Positions 4,737-42,882 of a stretch of DNA of 43,256 nucleotides are shown in pieces. The notes under the pieces are model-generated. The model was not told the origin of the DNA. It made no database searches and saw only the letters and a program-made list of their open reading frames with translations. How positions within the stretch are numbered: position 1 is the first letter of the stretch; the number at the start of each line of letters is the position of its first letter. Made by a program: the position numbers and the translations under genes. The DNA is from an uncultured Pelagibacteraceae bacterium (GTDB lineage Bacteria > Pseudomonadota > Alphaproteobacteria > Pelagibacterales > Pelagibacteraceae): positions 1 to 43,256 of the forward strand of contig CACHQZ010000007.1 in assembly GCA_902582165.1 (NCBI GenBank). Direction: 5' to 3'.

Positions 4737-5305
4737 CCCTTGATAGTGTCAATTATCTCGCTAATTTCACTATTAATTTCCACTATTCCAGCTTCACCAT
4801 TAACAACTCTAAGTAAATTTGATTTCTTGTAATAATCTAAAACCATTTGGGATGATTTTTCATAATTTTTAAATCTTTTTATAGCAATATCCTTATTATC
4901 ATCTGCTCTGTTTTCTAATTCTTTTCGATCTAAAATTCTTTTTATTACTGATTTTAGAGAGACTGACAATTTTAATACTATATCAATTTTTTGATTATAT
5001 TTTTTCAATAACTCATCTAAATTTTGTGCCTGACTTAAACTTCGTGGGTACCCATCAAAAATAATTTTATTTTTAAAAACTTCATTTGATATAAATTTTT
5101 CTATTAGGTTGCTAACTATTTCATCTGAAACTAAATCACCAGAATTCATAATTGATGAGATTTTTAAGCCCAGCTCGGTATTGTCACTAATTTCCTTCCT
5201 CAAAAGATCTCCAGTTGACAGTTGATGTAATTTATATTTATTAACTATAAACTTGGATTGAGTTCCTTTTCCTGCACCAGGAGGGCCAAAAATAACAATA
5301 TTCAT
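4733..5305 (-). CDS. adk: Adenylate kinase
   Basis: Adk interconverts ATP + AMP and 2 ADP. The P-loop GPPGAGKGTQ (residues 7-16), the AMP-binding segment LSTGDLLR, the FDGYPRSLSQAQ block and the C-terminal RADDNKDIAIKRF segment are all present. At 190 aa it is the short-LID form without the zinc-type LID insertion, which is common in alphaproteobacteria. It lies 5 nt after secY, the usual spc-operon place in this class. Its stop codon is part of the -35 element of the following alpha-operon promoter. Confidence 0.97.
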   Translation of the reverse strand: MNIVIFGPPGAGKGTQSKFIVNKYKLHQLSTGDLLRKEISDNTELGLKISSIMNSGDLVSDEIVSNLIEKFISNEVFKNKIIFDGYPRSLSQAQNLDELLKKYNQKIDIVLKLSVSLKSVIKRILDRKELENRADDNKDIAIKRFKNYEKSSQMVLDYYKKSNLLRVVNGEAGIVEINSEISEIIDTIKG

Positions 5306-14293: not shown

Positions 14294-14998
14294 TTATTTT
14301 TTTCCTTTCTTTGCTGCAGCGGCTTTTAATCTTGCCTCATATTTTTCTTTTATTGTTTTTCTATTAATTTTTTTTATAGACTCTCTTAAATAAACTTTTG
14401 AATTCTTTGATCCAGGAATTGATCCTTTTAAATATAGAAGGCTATTTTCAATATCTGATTTTATAATTTCTAAGTTTAATATTGTTCTAAACTTATCTCC
14501 CATATGACCTGCCATTTTTTTTCCTTTAAATACTTTTCCAGGATCTTGTCTTTGACCGGTAGATCCGTGGGATCGATGAGAAACAGATACTCCATGTGAT
14601 GCTCTTAATCCTCCAAAGTTCCATCTCTTCATTACACCTGCAAAACCTTTTCCGATTGTTTTTGATCTGACATCTACAAATTTTTTATCTTTAAGTATTT
14701 CTAATCCTAATTCGTTGCCTTCTTTGTAAATCTCAATATTGTTAACTTTAAATTCTTTTAGGATTTTTTTAGGTTCTGTGTTTTTTTTAACAAAATAACC
14801 TTTCATTTGTTTTGTTAATTTTGAATTTTTAATTTTAAAAAAACCAACTTTTACAGCTTTATAACCTCTTTTATCTTCCGTAATAACATCCAGCACTCTT
14901 CCTTTTTCAACTTTTATTACTGTAACCGGCACCGATTGTCCTGTTTCCATAAACTCTCTTGTCATTCCAATTTTTGTTCCTATCAATCCAATGCTCAT
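14294..14998 (-). CDS. rplC: 50S ribosomal protein L3
   Basis: L3 binds near the 23S 3' end and reaches the peptidyl-transferase centre. [20 protein letters not shown] and the loop [20 protein letters not shown], with the Gln that PrmB methylates in E. coli, are visible. At 234 aa it is longer than E. coli (209), mostly through a Lys/Ala-rich C-terminal tail. It lies 3 nt after rpsJ. Confidence 0.98.
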
Positions 14999-15313: not shown

Positions 15314-17386
15314 TTAAGCTAATTTTTTTGTTACCTCATCCTGAACATTTTGAGGTACTTTATCATAATGACTAAATTGCATTGTATATTGTGCTCTCCC
15401 TTGCGTAGAAGATCTCAAATTATTTATATATCCAAACATATTTGCTAAAGGAACTACTGCATTAATAGCTGTTGCGTTTCCCCTTGGCTCTGTTGAACCA
15501 ACCTGACCTCTTCTACTATTCAGGTCACCAATTACGTCGCCCATAAACTCCTCCGGAGTAACAACTTCAACTTTCATCATTGGCTCAAGTAGCTTTAAAG
15601 TAGCTTTTTGACATGCTTCTCTAAAACACGATCTACTAGCAATCTCAAAGGCTAATACACTTGAATCGACATCGTGATGTAATCCATCTAAAATTTTTAC
15701 TTTATAGTCAATAATAGGAAACCCAGCCAAAATACCATTGTCTGAAACACTTTGAACTCCTTTTTCAACACCAGGAATAAATTCTTTTGGAATAGCACCG
15801 CCTTTAATTAAATTTTCAACTTCTCTACCTTTACCAGCCTCTAGTGGTTCAACACTCAAACGAACTTTAGCAAATTGACCCGCTCCTCCACTTTGTTTTT
15901 TGTGAATATATTCCATCTCCGCTGATCCTAAGATTGTTTCTCTATAAGCTACTTGTGGTGCACCAATATTAGCTTCTACTTTAAATTCTCTTTTCATTCT
16001 ATCAACAATAATATCTAAGTGTAATTCCCCCATTCCTTTAATTATCGTTTGTCCGGATTCTTCATCGGAAGAAACTCTGAATGATGGATCTTCTTTTGCT
16101 AATCTAGCTAGAGCCTCTCCCATTTTTTCTTGATCTCCCTTAGTTTTAGGCTCAACTGCAATTTCAATAACTGGATCTGGAAACTCCATTGGTTCTAGCA
16201 AAACTGGATTTTTGTCATCGCATAAAGTATGACCAGTGATCGTATGTTTAAGACCTGCTAATGCAACAATATCCCCTGCTGTTGCAACTTTTATATCTTC
16301 ACGACTGTTAGCATGCATTAAGAGCATTCTACCGATACGTTCTGATTTGTCTTTGGATGAATTCAAAATCGAGGTGCCAGCATTAAGTGTTCCAGAATAT
16401 ATTCTTATAAAAGTGAGCGAACCAACAAATGGGTCGTTAGCTACTTTAAAAGCTAGTGCGGAAAATTTTTCTTTTTCATCAAACTTCATTATTACTTTTT
16501 CTTCTGAACCTACTTTAGTTCCTTCAATTGAATTTAAATCACTCGGACTTGGTAAATAATCGATTACTGCGTCTAATAATGGTTGAACACCTTTGTTTTT
16601 AAATGCGGAACCAGTTAATATTGGAACGAAATTAAATGATAAAGTGCCTTTTCTTATACATTTGATTAGATCCTCCTCGGAAGGTTCTTTCCCCTCTAAA
16701 TATAATTCCATTAATTTTTCATCTTCCTCAACTGCTGTCTCAACTAATTCTTTTCTGAATTTCTTCGCTTTTTCTTTAAGATCGTTTGGAATTTCAACGT
16801 ACTCCCATTTAGCTCCTAAGTCCTCGTTTTGCCATACAACACCTTTCATTTTTACTAAATCTATTATTCCCTTTAGATCTGCCTCAGATCCAATAGGTAA
16901 TTGTACGGGTAGAGGTTTGCAACCAAGTCTATCTTTAATCATATCAACACACCTATAAAAATCTGCGCCGGTTCTATCTAATTTATTGACAAAGCAAATT
17001 CTTGGCACTTTATACTTATCAGCTTGCCTCCAAACTGTTTCAGACTGTGGTTCAACTCCTGCGACACCATCAAAAACAGCTACTGCTCCATCTAAAACTT
17101 TTAAAGATCTTTCAACTTCGATTGTAAAATCTACGTGACCAGGAGTATCAATAATATTTATTCTATGATCTCTCCAAAAACATGTTGTAGCTGCTGAAGT
17201 AATCGTAATACCTCTTTCTTGTTCTTGTTCCATCCAATCCATTGTTGCAGCTCCATCATGTACTTCACCGATCTTATGACTTTTACCAGTGTAGTATAAA
17301 ATTCTTTCTGTAGTGGTAGTTTTACCAGCATCTATATGAGCCATAATTCCAATATTTCTATATTTGTCTAAAGTATATTTACTCAT
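15314..17386 (-). CDS. fusA: Translation elongation factor G
   Basis: EF-G drives translocation and ribosome recycling by GTP hydrolysis. The GTPase motifs are [19 protein letters not shown] (G1), [12 protein letters not shown] (G2), [16 protein letters not shown] (G3) and NKLDR (G4). Domains II to V follow, including the domain IV segment VAYRETILG. At 690 aa it matches alphaproteobacterial EF-G. It sits between rpsG and rpsJ; a tuf gene, which often follows fusA, is absent. Confidence 0.99.
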
Positions 17387-36046: not shown

Positions 36047-36087
36047 TATTAAAAAAAAGGGCTAATTAAATGATAATTAGCCCTTTT
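36047..36087 (-). terminator. Intrinsic terminator between dctP and dctQ
   Basis: AAAAGGGCTAATTA (36055-36068) pairs perfectly with TAATTAGCCCTTTT (36074-36087): a 14-bp stem with a 5-nt loop. Read on the minus strand the stem ends in a run of eight T (complement of 36051-36058), the signature of a rho-independent terminator. It follows dctP by 15 nt and precedes dctQ, so it would make most transcripts end after the binding-protein gene. Confidence 0.85.
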
Positions 36088-37346: not shown

Positions 37347-38324
37347 ATGAGAAGAATAATAGCTATTATTATTTCAACTTTATTTTTAAGCAACATTGCG
37401 TTTGCTAAAATAACAATGAAATATTCAGGATCGTTACCTGTTGGTCATCACTTAACTGGTGCTCAAAAATTATTTGCTGAAAAGGTTGCCAAAAAAACAA
37501 ACGGCGAAATTGAAATTAAAGTTTTTCCTGCTAAACAACTTTACTCAACAAAAGCTGTGCCTTCAGCGGTAGTTTCTGGTGCGTTAGAAATGGGATACAA
37601 TTTATTTGGTGTCTGGACAAAAGATACGATATCAGAAATTAACGATGTTCCGTTTCTAATTCAAAACGTGAAACAAGCTGGAAAGGCTTGGGATAACAAT
37701 GAGAGACTTTTTAAATATTACACAAAAGTAATGGAAAAAAGAAAAATGAAACCGCTTGGCGTAATTTTTTATGGTTCATTATTTGATTTAACAAGTCCTT
37801 CTCCAATTGTTAATCCGTCTGACTTTAATGGAAAAAAGATTAGAACTTATAGTGCTTTAGCATCTGAAGGTATAAGAGCTTTAGGTGGATCGCCAGTAAC
37901 AATGGCTCCAGGAGAAATGTATTTAAGTTTACAAAATGGAACTATTGATGCTGCCATCACGGGGTTAACTTCTATTCATAAAAGAAAATTATGGGAAACT
38001 GGTGAGAACGCTACTATAGCAGGCGCTGGTTTTGGAGTATTTGCAGTAAATATGAATTTAGATTTATTCAATAGTCTTTCAAAAGATCATCAAAAAGCAT
38101 TGTTAGATGCATCTAACGAAGTAATGAAATGGTCAGTGAAAGAAGCTGCGAAAGCAGACAAAGAAAGCATGAAATTTTTGAAATCAAAAATTAATGTTAC
38201 TGTCTTAAATAAAAATCAAAAAAAGGTTTGGGCTGAAAAGCTAGAGCCTGTGAAACAAAGCTGGTTAAAAAAAGCTAATAGCGAGGAAAAAGCGCTTTTT
38301 GACTGGGTTTCATCTTTAAGATAA
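37347..38324 (+). CDS. dctP: TRAP transporter periplasmic substrate-binding protein (DctP family)
   Basis: The 325-aa protein has a Sec signal peptide (cleavage after residue 20, NIAFA) and classic DctP features: MKYSGSLPVGHHLTGAQKLF, FPAKQLYSTKAVPSAVVSGA, and the hinge NGKKIRTYSALASEGIRALG with Arg166, the residue that in characterised DctP proteins salt-bridges the substrate carboxylate. GEMYLSLQNGTIDAAITG completes the pattern. An organic-acid ligand is therefore likely, but its identity is not readable. An AGGAG ribosome binding site lies 6 nt before the ATG. A hairpin separates it from dctQ. Confidence 0.94.
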   Translation: MRRIIAIIISTLFLSNIAFAKITMKYSGSLPVGHHLTGAQKLFAEKVAKKTNGEIEIKVFPAKQLYSTKAVPSAVVSGALEMGYNLFGVWTKDTISEINDVPFLIQNVKQAGKAWDNNERLFKYYTKVMEKRKMKPLGVIFYGSLFDLTSPSPIVNPSDFNGKKIRTYSALASEGIRALGGSPVTMAPGEMYLSLQNGTIDAAITGLTSIHKRKLWETGENATIAGAGFGVFAVNMNLDLFNSLSKDHQKALLDASNEVMKWSVKEAAKADKESMKFLKSKINVTVLNKNQKKVWAEKLEPVKQSWLKKANSEEKALFDWVSSLR

Positions 38325-38332
38325 CCAATATT

Positions 38333-38384
38333 AAGTCGGGACACTAAAATGTTATATTTTTTTGACAAATTAGTGTCTCGGCTT
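38333..38384 (+). promoter_or_regulatory. Hairpin spanning the dctQ start codon
   Basis: The 15-nt arm at 38333-38347 (AAGTCGGGACACTAA) pairs without bulges to 38370-38384 (TTAGTGTCTCGGCTT), with 13 Watson-Crick and two G-U pairs. The 22-nt loop contains the dctQ ATG (38349-38351). A pyrimidine-rich stretch (CTTTATTTTT type) follows the right arm. It could limit read-through into dctQM, block ribosome access to dctQ, or protect the dctP mRNA 3' end. Confidence 0.7.
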
Positions 38385-38846
38385 TCTTTATTTTTACAAA
38401 GTCTTGCTCTCCTAGCTTTTATAATTCTAACATGTTCAGTAATATATGAAGTCGTAGCAAGATCAATAATCAATAAACCAACTATTTGGTCTCTTGAAAT
38501 TGTGACCTACATGATATCTTGCGTGGCTTTTTTTGGTTCGGCCTATGTTTTGAGAATAAACAAACATTTAGAAGTAAATCTTTTTACGAATATTCTTCCA
38601 AAAAAAATTAAACTAATATTTAGTTTTTTTTCTAATTTAGTTGGTTTGATTTTTTGCTTCATAGCTTTTTACTACGGATGCAAGCTTATAAATTTATCTT
38701 ATATTTTAGGTGTTGTTTCAGTTAGTGAGCTTAGAACACCTTTATGGATTCCTCAACTAACGGTGCCTATTGGATTTTTTGCGTTAACTTTAGAATTCCT
38801 AATCAGAATATTAAAACTTTTTACTGCTCAAAATAATAAACAATGA
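38349..38846 (+). CDS. dctQ: TRAP transporter small permease subunit (DctQ)
   Basis: A 165-aa protein with four hydrophobic helices. The N-terminal FIILTCSVIYEVVARSIINK carries the DctQ helix-1 motif (VxxR), TIWSLEIVTYMISCVAFFGS follows, and the C-terminal half has TPLWIPQLTVPIGFFALTLE. It would form the membrane complex with the following DctM, whose start it overlaps by 4 nt (ATGA). Its start codon lies in the loop of a hairpin and has no accessible Shine-Dalgarno. Confidence 0.9.
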   Translation: MLYFFDKLVSRLSLFLQSLALLAFIILTCSVIYEVVARSIINKPTIWSLEIVTYMISCVAFFGSAYVLRINKHLEVNLFTNILPKKIKLIFSFFSNLVGLIFCFIAFYYGCKLINLSYILGVVSVSELRTPLWIPQLTVPIGFFALTLEFLIRILKLFTAQNNKQ

Positions 38847-40120
38847 TTGTATCAATTTTATTTTTAAGCATTGTTTTAATTATATTAACAGGAATACCTG
38901 TAGGTATAGGTTTAGGTGTAGTAGGTTTGGGGTTTTCGCTTATATTCGAGGGTCAAAGTGCATTTATTAGTCTCCCACAAACTATTTTTTCTTCGAATAA
39001 CTCATTTCTATTAACAGCAATTCCGATGTTTATTTTAATGAGTGAAATTTTAAGAAGAGCAAACGTTACTGAGATTCTCTTTGATGCGGTAACGAAACTA
39101 GTAGGTCATTTACCAGGTGGTTTAGCTGTTTCTACCGTAATTACTTGTGCCATTGGTGCAAGTATTACAGGAAGTTCGGTGGCTAATGCAGCAAGCATGT
39201 CAATTGTTGCAGCACCTTCCATGATATCGAGAGGATATGAGAGAAAGTTTACCTATGGATTAATAGCTGCTTCTGGAACATTAGGTATTTTAATTCCGCC
39301 CTCTATACCAATGCTTCTTTATGCGTCAATAACTGAGGAGTCTATAGGGAAACTATTTATTTCAGGTATAGTACCTGGTCTTTTGTTGGTATCTTTATTG
39401 TGTGCTTATGTAATCTTAAAAGAAAAATTTTTTGATAATAGTGATAGAAAAATTGAAAAGGCATCTTTTGGAGCTAGATTAAATTCTCTTAAAAAGGCTT
39501 TACCAGCACTTATACTACCAATAATAGTAGTTGGCGGTATTTATGCAGGATTTTTTACTCCGACTGAAGCAGCAGGTGTAGGAGTATTTTTCGCATTTGT
39601 TCTTGGTTTCTTTTGGTACCGAACTTTAAATTTATTGGATATTATACCAATTTTTAAAGATAGTTTGCATTCAACTTGTATGATCTTGCTTTTAATTGCT
39701 GGCTCAATGGTTTTAGGTCATGCTATTACAACTCTGCAAATAAGTGATCAATTAGTAAGTATGGTCTCTGCTTATGATGTGAGCAAAGTGATTTTCATAA
39801 TATTGATTATGATACTTTTATTTGTTCTTGGTTGCATACTAGAGGTAATATCAGTTATTTATATTGTGTTACCCGTATTATATCCAATAGTAATGGAACT
39901 TGGAATTAATTCAATTTGGTTTGCAATCATTTTTATTGTTAACATGGAAATAGCTCTTATAACTCCACCGTTAGGTATGAATTTATATGTAATCGGGGGT
40001 ATTTCTAAAAGGCCAATATCAGAAATTATGTTAGGCAGTGTTCCTTTTGTAGTAATATTTTTATTCTTTTTATTATTACTAATTTTGTTTCCAGGTATAA
40101 GTACAATTTTTGTAAGATAA
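38843..40120 (+). CDS. dctM: TRAP transporter large permease subunit (DctM)
   Basis: A 425-aa protein with about twelve hydrophobic helices and DctM landmarks: FLLTAIPMFILMSEILRRAN, GASITGSSVANAASMSIVAA, AASGTLGILIPPSIPMLLYA, FFTPTEAAGVGVFFAFVLGF and ALITPPLGMNLYVIGGIS. It is the translocating subunit of the second TRAP system. It overlaps dctQ by 4 nt, and its stop is directly followed by the ATG of the GAF gene with no spacer. Confidence 0.95.
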   Translation: MIVSILFLSIVLIILTGIPVGIGLGVVGLGFSLIFEGQSAFISLPQTIFSSNNSFLLTAIPMFILMSEILRRANVTEILFDAVTKLVGHLPGGLAVSTVITCAIGASITGSSVANAASMSIVAAPSMISRGYERKFTYGLIAASGTLGILIPPSIPMLLYASITEESIGKLFISGIVPGLLLVSLLCAYVILKEKFFDNSDRKIEKASFGARLNSLKKALPALILPIIVVGGIYAGFFTPTEAAGVGVFFAFVLGFFWYRTLNLLDIIPIFKDSLHSTCMILLLIAGSMVLGHAITTLQISDQLVSMVSAYDVSKVIFIILIMILLFVLGCILEVISVIYIVLPVLYPIVMELGINSIWFAIIFIVNMEIALITPPLGMNLYVIGGISKRPISEIMLGSVPFVVIFLFFLLLLILFPGISTIFVR

Positions 40121-40687
40121 ATGAGAGGTTATTTTGAACTTTTTCCTAGTCTAATTGATAAAATAGAAAGACAAAAATCGTTTGAAAAAGTATTGAAATT
40201 AATTACTAAATTTTCATATGAGAACTTAGGAAATAGATCAAAAGCTCGAAAAAAAACTAATCTTAAGAAAAAAGAAAAAAATCAATATGCTTGTGGTTCA
40301 TTTATTCTACTCAATCCTAAAAAACAAATTTTAATTGCTCCTCAAAATTATGCACGTGATCAAAAATATATGTTGCTTAATACAAATATTGGACACCCTG
40401 GTTGGGTGATTAAAAATAAAAGAAAATTAATATTAACTAACACTGATAAACATAAATCTTTTGTAAGAATATTAAAAACTTTTAGGGCTGGTTCAGCTAT
40501 TTACGCACCAATAATTTCTAAAAATAAATTTATTGGTCAAATCATTTGTGCAAGTCAGGCTAGAAATGTAATGGAAGAAATTGATCTTTCTACTTTATGC
40601 ATACTTTCAAAATTAGCTTCATGTTATTGGACAAAATTAAAAGGCAAACTGGAGATCAGGAAATTGTATTTAAAAAAGTACAAATAA
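40121..40687 (+). CDS. Stand-alone GAF-domain protein
   Basis: The 188-aa soluble protein has a GAF-like core from about residue 55: GSFILLNPKKQILIA, then NTNIGHPGWVIKNKRKLILT (the typical GAF helix-strand connection), then RAGSAIYAPIISKNKFIGQI and ICASQARNVMEEIDLSTLCI. A Lys-rich stretch occupies residues 42-54. No output domain (HTH, kinase, GGDEF) is present. GAF domains bind small ligands or act as dimer modules; some small ones are methionine sulfoxide reductases, but no clear catalytic Cys pattern is seen. Its zero-spacer link to dctM implies a role tied to the transporter or its substrate. Function unknown. Confidence 0.7.
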   Translation: MRGYFELFPSLIDKIERQKSFEKVLKLITKFSYENLGNRSKARKKTNLKKKEKNQYACGSFILLNPKKQILIAPQNYARDQKYMLLNTNIGHPGWVIKNKRKLILTNTDKHKSFVRILKTFRAGSAIYAPIISKNKFIGQIICASQARNVMEEIDLSTLCILSKLASCYWTKLKGKLEIRKLYLKKYK

Positions 40688-40706
40688 TTAATGCTTCATT
40701 TTGTTA

Positions 40707-40758
40707 ATATTTTTAAATAGCTTTTTTATTTTTTTTTTAATAAGATATTTAAAAATAT
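40707..40758 (+). promoter_or_regulatory. AT-only inverted repeat upstream of the cyclase gene
   Basis: A perfect 13-bp inverted repeat, 40707-40719 with 40746-40758, encloses 26 nt dominated by T runs, including ten consecutive T. The right arm ends just before the AAGGAG ribosome binding site at 40760-40765. It may be a weak hairpin affecting cyclase expression or a DNA operator. All pairs are A-T, so chance occurrence in this AT-rich DNA is a real possibility. The rest of the 84-nt gap shows nothing else. Confidence 0.35.
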
Positions 40759-40771
40759 AAAGGAGAAACAT

Positions 40772-41476
40772 ATGGCAAGAAAAATAATAGACTTAAGTTT
40801 AACAGTCGAAGATAATATGCCGGCTCATAAACTTTTTCAAAGCCCAATTTATATACCAGCGCTAACTCATGAAACTACTAAATCTTTTGGTTTAGGTGTT
40901 GAAGGTGATATCATGACTTTTCAGACAAATTATATTGGTATGTTGGACCATGTTGGAACTCACGTGGATGCGTTCAGGCATGTTAATCCAAAAGGCAAGC
41001 CAATTGATGAAATGCCTTTGGACTTGTTCATGGGAAAAGCTGTTACTTTTGATCTTACACATATTAAAGATCTTGAGGAAATAACTGAAAAACATATGGA
41101 TGAGGCAGAAAAAAAATCTGGTGTTAAAGTTGACGGTCACATTGTGCTTCTGTGTACTGGTTTCCATGCAAGAAACTACGCTGATAGAAAACAGATAGTA
41201 TGGGGGAACCCTCAGTTAACAGTAGGTGCTTCAGAGTGGTTATACAAAAGAGGATCTAAAATGCACGGAGTTGAAGGTCCATCAACAGATGCACCAACTA
41301 ATAATATTTTTGCTCAACATAGATACTGTAGAGATAAAGGTATCACTCATTTCGAATGGTTAGTTAATTTAGAGGCTACTATTGGAAAAGGAGAATTTGA
41401 ATTTATTGGTTTGCCAATTAAATTTAAAGGTGGTTCTGGATCTCCAGTCAGAGCAGTAGCATTACTAGACGAGTAA
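40772..41476 (+). CDS. Cyclase-family metal-dependent hydrolase (kynurenine formamidase / isatin hydrolase-like)
   Basis: The 234-aa protein has the metal-binding motif of the cyclase family, LDHVGTHVDAFRHV, with likely ligands His60, His64, Asp66 and His70 (family form HxGTHxDxPxH; the Pro is Phe here). IDLSLTVEDNMPAH at the N terminus and NLEATIGKGEFEFIGLPIKF with GGSGSPVRAVALL at the C terminus are also typical. Characterised members (KynB, isatin hydrolase) hydrolyse N-formyl or cyclic amide bonds with Mn2+ or Zn2+. A strong AAGGAG site precedes the ATG. Its place after a TRAP operon and before an amidase suggests catabolism of the imported compound. Substrate unknown. Confidence 0.85.
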   Translation: MARKIIDLSLTVEDNMPAHKLFQSPIYIPALTHETTKSFGLGVEGDIMTFQTNYIGMLDHVGTHVDAFRHVNPKGKPIDEMPLDLFMGKAVTFDLTHIKDLEEITEKHMDEAEKKSGVKVDGHIVLLCTGFHARNYADRKQIVWGNPQLTVGASEWLYKRGSKMHGVEGPSTDAPTNNIFAQHRYCRDKGITHFEWLVNLEATIGKGEFEFIGLPIKFKGGSGSPVRAVALLDE

Positions 41477-41487
41477 ACTGGATTTAA

Positions 41488-42882
41488 ATGGGATCTCTTC
41501 GCTTTTTAAATATTAAACAATTATCAAGTTTAATTAAAAAGAAAGAGATCTCTCCAGTAGAAATTCTCAAAGAAACACTTGAAAGTCTTGAAAACTTAGA
41601 GTCAAAGCTTAATTCTTTTGCTCACTTGGATGTTGAGGGAGCAAAAAAACTTGCCTCTGAGTCAGAAAAAAGGATGCTATCAAACAAATTAATTTCTGAT
41701 TTAGATGGCATCCCTACTTCAATCAAAGATCTTGTTGCGCAAAAAGATATGCCTCTTAGATTTGGCTCAAAAACTACTCCTGATAAAAATTGTGAAGTAG
41801 ATGCACCTTCAGTTGAAAGGCTAAGAGATGCTGGAGCTATCTTATTAGGAAAATCAACAACCAGTGAATTTGGTTGCAAGGCAGTTGGAGATAGTCCTCT
41901 TACCGGAATAACTAGAAATCCTTGGAATTTAGATTTAACAACAGGAGGATCAAGTTGTGGAGCAGCAGCAATGGTTTCTGCTGGTATAGTGCCTTACGCC
42001 ATAGGAACTGATGGCGGAGGATCTATTAGAATACCTGCCTCTTTAACTGGATTATTTGGAATAAAAGCAAATTTTGGCAGAGTTCCAGTTTATCCTGTTT
42101 CGGCTACGCCTACTTTAGCACATGTAGGACCATTATGTAGAAATGTTGAAGATGCATGTACAATTCTAAAAATCATTTCCGGATCAAACTGGAAAGATCC
42201 TTTTTCTGTATCTGAAAAAGTTCCAAATTTTAGTGAAGAAATTAAAAAGAAAAAAAAATTTAAAATAGCCTGGAGCCCAACGTTAGGATATGCAAAACCA
42301 GAAAAAGAAGTTTTGGAAAAACTTAATAAGGCTATTGATAACATCAAAACATTGGGACATGAAGTTGAATTAATAGATAATATTTTTGAGAAAGATCCTG
42401 TATATCTTTGGAACGCAGAATTTTATGCAGGTGTTGGTACAAAACTTAAACAGGTTATTGAGAAAAATCCTGATTTGATAGATCCTCCTATATTAGAAGT
42501 TTTAAAAGTTGCCATAACACAAGAAATGGGAAATTATTACGGATCAGTATTCGAAAGATACGCGTTAAGAGAAAAAATGAGAATATTTTTTGAGCAGTAT
42601 GATCTCTTGGTTACACCTACGCTTCCTTGTCCTGCTTTTAAAGCAGGATTAAATGTTCCAAAAGATTTTCCAGATAGAAATATCGTTTCTTGGGTATACT
42701 ATACATATCCTTTCAATCTGACAGGTCAACCAGCTGCCTCCATAAACTGTGGTTTTAGTAAAGATAACTTGCCTATAGGGATGCAAATCATTTCTAAAAC
42801 AAATAGAGAAATAGATATATTAAATTTAGCGAAACAATTTGAAGATAAATTTATTGATTTAAATAAAAAACCAAACATTTAA
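41488..42882 (+). CDS. Amidase-signature hydrolase (GatA/FAAH superfamily)
   Basis: The 464-aa protein has the Ser-cisSer-Lys triad at canonical spacing: Lys80 (TSIKD), Ser155 (GGSSCG) and Ser179 (GTDGGGSIRIPA), i.e. 75 and 24 residues apart as in fatty acid amide hydrolase. The GLFGIKANFGRVP block follows. Family members hydrolyse amides, ureas and nitrile-derived amides to acid and ammonia. It is not adjacent to gatB or gatC, so a catabolic amidase is more likely than glutamyl-tRNA amidotransferase. It follows the cyclase by 11 nt. Substrate unknown. Confidence 0.88.
   Translation: MGSLRFLNIKQLSSLIKKKEISPVEILKETLESLENLESKLNSFAHLDVEGAKKLASESEKRMLSNKLISDLDGIPTSIKDLVAQKDMPLRFGSKTTPDKNCEVDAPSVERLRDAGAILLGKSTTSEFGCKAVGDSPLTGITRNPWNLDLTTGGSSCGAAAMVSAGIVPYAIGTDGGGSIRIPASLTGLFGIKANFGRVPVYPVSATPTLAHVGPLCRNVEDACTILKIISGSNWKDPFSVSEKVPNFSEEIKKKKKFKIAWSPTLGYAKPEKEVLEKLNKAIDNIKTLGHEVELIDNIFEKDPVYLWNAEFYAGVGTKLKQVIEKNPDLIDPPILEVLKVAITQEMGNYYGSVFERYALREKMRIFFEQYDLLVTPTLPCPAFKAGLNVPKDFPDRNIVSWVYYTYPFNLTGQPAASINCGFSKDNLPIGMQIISKTNREIDILNLAKQFEDKFIDLNKKPNI

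Follow-up and report, generated by a model that had tools for sequence, protein, structure and literature searches.

Nearly every TRAP transporter operon surveyed in SAR11 carries a stable hairpin directly after the gene for its solute-binding protein (SBP). The example in the window (the whole stretch of 43,256 nucleotides analysed here), which spans the end of the dctP-dctQ gap and the beginning of dctQ, probably functions as an intercistronic mRNA element that favours dctP message over dctQM message. On the evidence of sequence comparison and predicted folding, its main action would be protection of the dctP 3' end, perhaps joined by partial termination of transcription, a reading held with moderate confidence. 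SAR11 cells, which rank with the most abundant organisms of the sea, depend on high-affinity uptake and have plentiful binding proteins. The question raised by such cells is how, with few regulators, they fix an excess of binding protein over permease, and a near-universal hairpin at the TRAP junction would be a simple and testable answer.

The genes of the operon and the parts of the hairpin are arranged as follows.

37347..38324, + strand: dctP-type gene, the upstream cistron, an open reading frame for a TRAP solute-binding protein of 325 aa (Pfam DctP PF03480, E 2.6e-50)
38333..38347, + strand: 5' arm of the hairpin, non-coding, between dctP and dctQ, starting at the 9th nt past the dctP stop codon
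38348..38369, + strand: inter-arm region of 22 nt, with the dctQ ATG at 38349-38351 and a predicted apical helix of 38350-38354 with 38363-38367
38349..38846, + strand: dctQ-type gene for the small membrane subunit, 165 aa (Pfam DctQ PF04290, E 5.6e-26)
38370..38384, + strand: 3' arm of the hairpin, within dctQ (codons 8-12), including the CGG codon at 38379-38381
38385..38395, + strand: interrupted U-rich stretch that follows the stem, with 9 T in 11 nt, a possible weak terminator tract
38843..40120, + strand: dctM-type gene for the large membrane subunit, 425 aa (Pfam DctM PF06808, E 1.7e-100), with a 4-nt overlap with dctQ

Downstream of dctM lie an open reading frame with a GAF domain, a putative cyclase and an amidase, neighbours which mean that the substrate of the transporter need not be a dicarboxylate. 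The cluster dctPQM-GAF-cyclase-amidase (37347-42882) looks rare in SAR11. Among named records the operon is shared by Candidatus Pelagibacter MED1116, whose dctQ start agrees in position with that of the window, and by a Lake Baikal Pelagibacteraceae genome, both of the same family as the window genome. Close homologues of DctP were found in 1 of 169 genomes of its own genus (its own genome) and in 1 of the 8 genomes of the genus of MED1116; searches of even samples from larger groups, in which further relatives may exist, gave 2 of 397 genomes for the order, 1 of 385 for the class (again its own) and 1 of 399 for the genus of the Baikal relative. With the junction DNA as query, 149 of 397 genomes in a sample of the same kind from the family matched at E 0.001, and beyond short stretches only the window genome, MED1116 and the Baikal genome did so. 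Genome contigs yielded two loci in the DctP search and none in the DctQ search, and viral contigs yielded none.

The sequence-only reading had described a stem of 15 pairs between 38333-38347 and 38370-38384, with no bulge and two G-U pairs. This is borne out, the G-U pairs being U38336-G38381 and G38339-U38378. Folding of 38320-38400, which had been proposed as a check, gives -25.7 kcal/mol (z -7.75) against a shuffle mean of -8.03, and none of 200 shuffles equals it. In a scan of both strands of the window for bulge-free hairpins of at least 10 bp with loops of at most 40 nt, overlapping ones included, the hairpin ranks first in stability among 186, with -18.7 on the bulge-free scale, while the best hairpin in each of ten shuffled windows ranges from -11.5 to -15.8. 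Two further statements of that reading are accurate in part. The start codon, placed by it in the loop, does lie between the arms, but its T and G are paired in the predicted apical 5-bp helix. The arms, said to be much more GC-rich than their surroundings, are so mainly relative to the region between them and to the downstream side and less so relative to the upstream side (47% in the arms, 14% between them, 28% in the 100 nt downstream, 36% in the 100 nt upstream and 31% in the window).

On the minus strand the fold at this site reaches only -15.5, both G-U pairs becoming mismatches there, which indicates mRNA as the molecule under conservation. The CGG codon in the 3' arm is the sole CGG among 573 arginine codons in window reading frames of at least 100 aa, where AGA accounts for 461; CGG makes up 4 of 180 arginine codons in stretch L100, from elsewhere in this genome, and 4 of 122 in stretch L059 of MED1116, so the codon is rare and not unique. 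A search of the window against Rfam at the gathering score returned five tRNA matches only, with no family match for the hairpin.

MED1116, with a DctP 88% identical and about 76% DNA identity across the junction, retains the stem in the corresponding position, with 13 bp (-23.5 kcal/mol, z -6.70). Its 5' arm starts at the 10th nt past the dctP stop and its 3' arm ends, as in the window, at nt 36 of dctQ. The arms are identical at 24 of 26 nucleotides (12 of 13 in the 5' arm), and the two differences turn U38336-G38381 into U-A and G38339-U38378 into A-U, so that pairing is retained in both. The synonymous background between the two sequences is considerably looser, with identical codons for the same amino acid at 48% of positions in dctQ (n=113) and 51% in dctP (n=270). 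In simulations without structural constraint, with rates set in three ways, all 13 pairs survive in 0.46, 1.1 and 5.8% of runs. The arginine in the 3' arm is encoded by a CGN codon in both sequences. The inter-arm region is longer in MED1116 (28 nt, against 22 nt in the window) and has a predicted apical helix of 6 bp.

In the Baikal relative, with 59% identity in DctP and 47% in DctQ, no strong hairpin is found at the 18-nt junction, where the best bulge-free hairpin has -3.4 and z -0.40. The hairpin is therefore not essential to this type of transporter. The sequence-only reading had taken a loss of pairing in close relatives as evidence against its proposal, and on this point the relatives differ, the stem surviving in MED1116 and being absent from the 59%-identical Baikal sequence.

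That the structure arose by chance or as a by-product of coding, and serves no function, is very improbable. Such a view could appeal to the fact that the hairpin of this type is carried by two sequences only (the window genome and MED1116) and by none in the Baikal relative, that Val-Ser-Arg-Leu might be retained for the sake of the protein, and that CGG is less exceptional in the other stretch of the same genome (the 4 of 180 given above). It would have to account for z values of -7.75 and -6.70 in two sequences that are some 24% apart, for arms better conserved than their surroundings, and for a hairpin at 59 of 60 SBP/dctQ junctions in SAR11. A DNA-level inverted repeat bound by a transcription factor is harder still to credit. 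An inverted repeat does also exist as a feature of the DNA, but in MED1116 the half-sites would be rotated against each other, since their spacing is 28 nt there and 22 nt in the window. The arms have 14 matches in 10 genomes when one mismatch is allowed, and 4 of the 14 belong to the two hairpins; the reversed control pattern has 17, which means that no scattered set of sites is present. A mobile or repeated hairpin was also considered and rejected, since the junction matches only itself in its own genome and the arm motif is no commoner than the reversed control.

The window contains a second TRAP operon, divergent from the first, and the junction between its SBP gene and dctQ has a hairpin as well.

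36055..36087, - strand: second SBP/dctQ hairpin, 14 bp with a loop of 5, followed by a T run

This is the second most stable hairpin of the window, and in MED1116 the corresponding site has a hairpin of 12 bp with a double change from A-T to G-C. Its presence led to a survey of TRAP junctions across SAR11. Loci were collected by protein similarity, blind to hairpins, and hairpins were scored bulge-free. From 92 SBP reading frames, 4 at locus ends without a neighbour were dropped, and the 88 with a DctQ-scored neighbour represent 60 distinct SBP sequences. A hairpin of -12 kcal/mol or below is present at 59 of these 60 junctions and one of -15 or below at 57 of 60; when SBPs are clustered at 60% identity, 12 of 13 clusters have a strong hairpin, the sole exception being the Baikal relative. 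Control same-strand junctions, which were taken from the same loci and from a complete relative (ten stretches of 20 kb), with gaps of -60 to 250 nt, and may include other transporter genes, reach -12 in 6 of 288 cases and -15 in 3 of 288; those with gaps of 30-120 nt reach -12 kcal/mol in 4 of 51. Immediately downstream of DctQ genes, 0 of 35 junctions have a hairpin at -12 kcal/mol. The window hairpin belongs to the group defined by the survey, being bulge-free, at -12 kcal/mol or below, and starting within 8-24 nt of the SBP stop.

The three controls at or below -15 follow a TAXI-type SBP gene, an ammonium transporter gene and recA. Scanning 263 kb for hairpins at -14.5 or below, on either strand, gave 14, of which 6 lie in SBP/dctQ junctions, so that all six such junctions in the scanned DNA are covered. 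Of the other eight, three are inside reading frames and one is in a broad gap between convergent genes; one separates a TAXI-type SBP gene from a DctM-fusion gene, one comes after recA, and two flank an ammonium transporter gene. Individual sites can be located in SAR11 relatives: in the complete relative, equally strong hairpins lie at 4782-4811 of stretch L090, between the TAXI-type SBP gene (Pfam NMT1_3) and the DctM-fusion gene, and at 14807-14843 of the same stretch, downstream of the ammonium transporter gene, and a hairpin of -17.1 lies directly after recA at 15658-15684 of stretch L098.

Position within the junction distinguishes between possible roles. In the 59 cases with a strong hairpin the foot of the stem lies 8-24 nt past the SBP stop (mean 15.6, sd 4.2). 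Relative to the dctQ start the stem is far less constant, its position shifting between 59 nt before that codon and 36 nt within the gene (sd 18.2; gene starts were picked by a simple rule, one chosen start being TTG, and some of these distances may be wrong). This arrangement, anchored at the stop and variable with respect to the start, suggests that the hairpin belongs to the SBP message as a 3' element. The emphasis that the sequence-only reading had placed on the start codon consequently looks secondary, since the group holds its distance from the dctP stop and not from the dctQ start. Comparison does lend support to its broader idea, a hairpin setting the binding protein to permease ratio: the stem is present in MED1116, and hairpins are in excess at SBP/dctQ junctions over controls (59/60 versus 6/288). 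The gaps between dctP and dctQ in the window (24 nt) and MED1116 (27 nt) are the shortest of the 59, the others being 42-113 nt. The short gap places the 3' arm in codons 8-12 of dctQ and causes the dctQ start to be enclosed by the hairpin. Only these two stems straddle the start codon, the other 57 ending at or before it, and only these two have 22-28 nt between the arms, against 3-7 nt in the rest.

Enclosure of the start raises the possibility of translational control, in which the stem would hide the dctQ initiation region so that dctQ translation would depend largely on ribosomes that open the stem as they finish dctP, giving less permease per mRNA. The predicted cost of opening the region from -18 to +15 of the dctQ start is 21.8 kcal/mol in the window and 20.7 in MED1116, compared with a median of 6.5 and a maximum of 17.3 for 269 control starts. 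The base of the stem is just 8 nt past the dctP stop, close enough for a terminating ribosome to reach. Set against this, the median cost for the 60 dctQ starts is 7.2, near that of controls, although at least 12 of the 60 cost 19.0 or more; together with the 57 of 59 strong hairpins that end at or before the start codon, this means that occlusion is not a shared property of the group. Nor are the G-rich letters ahead of the start exactly conserved (GGGA in the window, GAGA in MED1116). Translational control is improbable as the principal role of the hairpin, and hindrance of dctQ initiation is likely to be an added effect in the window operon.

A partial intrinsic terminator, or attenuator, would lead to almost the same result as protection of dctP, and as the main explanation it must be considered rather unlikely. 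In this case RNA polymerase would in some passes stop just beyond the stem, in the U-rich stretch, and fewer transcripts would reach dctQM. The stem is followed by UCUUUAUUUUU, a tail which is U-rich and interrupted and has 6 T in the 8 nt past the last G/C. Sibling hairpins, such as that at 36055-36087, run into a T stretch, and at least 5 T occur in the 8 nt past the last G/C at 55 of the 59 hairpins (7 or 8 T at 31 of 59). In reporter assays described for Clostridia, stem-loops after ABC transporter SBP genes terminate 20.7-96.1% of transcription, types with poor U tracts included (PMC9045158). The dimensions of the window hairpin speak against such a function, as 22-28 nt separate the arms in the window and MED1116, against 3-7 nt in 57 of the 60 junction hairpins. 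A long inter-arm region is unfavourable for quick folding behind the polymerase. Intrinsic terminators are marked by a GC-rich stem, a short loop and an uninterrupted U tract; the window hairpin has 47% GC, 22 nt between its arms and an interrupted tract, and a simple terminator scan made no call there, although hairpins with loops above 8 nt, such as this one, were outside its range. A weak or atypical terminator at the window hairpin is possible.

Gene ends elsewhere in SAR11 also count against attenuation. Convergent ends, scored on their own strand within 90 nt past the stop, are nearly without strong hairpins, with 1 of 72 at -12 kcal/mol and 0 of 72 at -15 among ends drawn from the window and from stretches L059, L100 and L090-L099, and the lineage may therefore not rely on intrinsic terminators. 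As an observation in its own right, this scarcity (1/72) suggests that strong intrinsic terminators are seemingly rare in SAR11.

Evidence on pairing comes from one sibling group as well, hairpin sequences varying among SBP groups. In its 12 distinct sequences 95.8% of cells pair, compared with 44-49% when partners are slid by one column, and changes on both sides occur in 6 of 14 pairs. Three of five measures exceed all 500 shuffles; the number of pairs with double changes (114 of 500 shuffles as high) and the number of further pair types (402 of 500) do not exceed shuffles, and several of the double changes trace to a single split of 8 versus 4 sequences. These results support, short of proof, the view that pairing is under selection in this group of 12, and they are not a test of the window hairpin itself.

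Protection of the dctP message, the preferred reading, could proceed as follows. The polycistronic mRNA would be cut downstream, or transcription would stop nearby, exposing the dctQM part. Exonucleases working from 3' to 5' would then degrade the dctQM part and stall at the stem 9 nt past the dctP stop, and owing to this stall the dctP mRNA would outlive the dctQM mRNA, as for malE-malF. In a secondary step, the stem enclosing the dctQ start would lead to poor initiation by new ribosomes, unless its lower part had been opened by a ribosome reaching the end of dctP. Among the points against protection are the T-rich tails, which fit termination equally well, and the melting of the window stem by any ribosome that translates dctQ. 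Protection, termination and hindered initiation can act jointly, and they share the prediction of more dctP than dctQM product. A wider and distinctly tentative proposal is that a hairpin anchored at the SBP stop is near-obligatory in SAR11 TRAP operons and might be their main fixed device for SBP excess over permease, in a lineage that keeps few strong hairpins at gene ends; the window form would join protection of the dctP 3' end to a ribosome-gated dctQ start by way of its short gap.

Indications that the pattern extends beyond SAR11 TRAP operons are weak. At 12 TRAP SBP junctions scored in other Alphaproteobacteria, a set that includes the window's own second operon, z values of -3 or below occur in 3 of 12 versus 2 of 24 controls, and -12 kcal/mol is reached in 8 of 12 versus 7 of 24. 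Among SAR11 ABC binding proteins of family 3, hairpins of -12 or below occur at 3 of 6 identifiable junctions between the SBP gene and the next gene, with 3 of 9 loci giving none identifiable. The SBP_bac_3 genes with such a hairpin before the next gene are those of loci L139, L140 and L147.

The TRAP junction hairpins form a group defined here by position and energy, and the prediction is that RNA 3' ends and drops in coverage will be found at the stems in SAR11 transcriptomes. The open-licence literature, consulted mainly as titles and the beginnings of abstracts, yielded no report of hairpins between SBP genes and dctQ as a rule in SAR11 TRAP operons and no hairpin straddling a start codon in a TRAP operon. 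A search for structured RNAs in Ca. P. ubique targeted long, GC-rich intergenic regions and would thus miss junctions of this length, and the term TRAP is absent from the main text of that paper (PMC2704228). A table in a Red Sea study has a SAR11 TRAP dctP gene among its entries and is silent on the ratio (PMC5069720). Values given for an ABC operon of P. ubique under iron limitation are 16-fold for sfuC, 10.36 for sfuB and 4.99 for sfuA, which is not a ratio of levels (PMC2864753). The principle is already known from operons of the malE-malF type, and the SAR11 TRAP pattern is sharp and, as far as this search reached, unreported.

Several known systems resemble the SAR11 junctions to different degrees. 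In the puf operon, which carries photosynthesis genes, hairpins lie between genes. This operon of Rhodobacter capsulatus, named in PMC5927463, is like the present one alphaproteobacterial, and it is subject to differential decay. The candidate structured RNAs of Ca. P. ubique are likewise SAR11 hairpins, one motif often being followed by poly-U (PMC2704228). Operons with selective RNA processing and stabilisation (SRPS) offer a parallel in that the stability of the 3' stem-loop is said to predict the subunit ratio, although these operons belong to Clostridium and Bacillus (PMC8219983). The internal terminators of cellulolytic Clostridia are similar in that stem-loops with long stems and low U content follow SBP genes, with folding energies of -38.3 to -10.1 kcal/mol; they differ in being intergenic, in serving ABC importers of Gram-positive bacteria and in their reporter-proven termination, whereas the SAR11 hairpin is known from sequence (PMC9045158). 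In E. coli, as reported for differentially decaying operons, hairpins protect upstream genes, SBP genes included; of 34 stabilised upstream segments, 26 have their 3' end immediately past a stable hairpin, and 17 of these 26 hairpins are inside the downstream gene (PMC5927463). Decay was measured in those operons, and structures within coding sequence average 107 nt into the gene, unlike the SAR11 TRAP stem, which is predicted and straddles the start (PMC5927463). The resemblance in position is nevertheless close, for in the SAR11 TRAP operon, as in malE-malF and other E. coli operons with differential decay, a stable hairpin stands directly after the cistron for the substrate-binding subunit and before the genes for the membrane subunits (PMC5927463).
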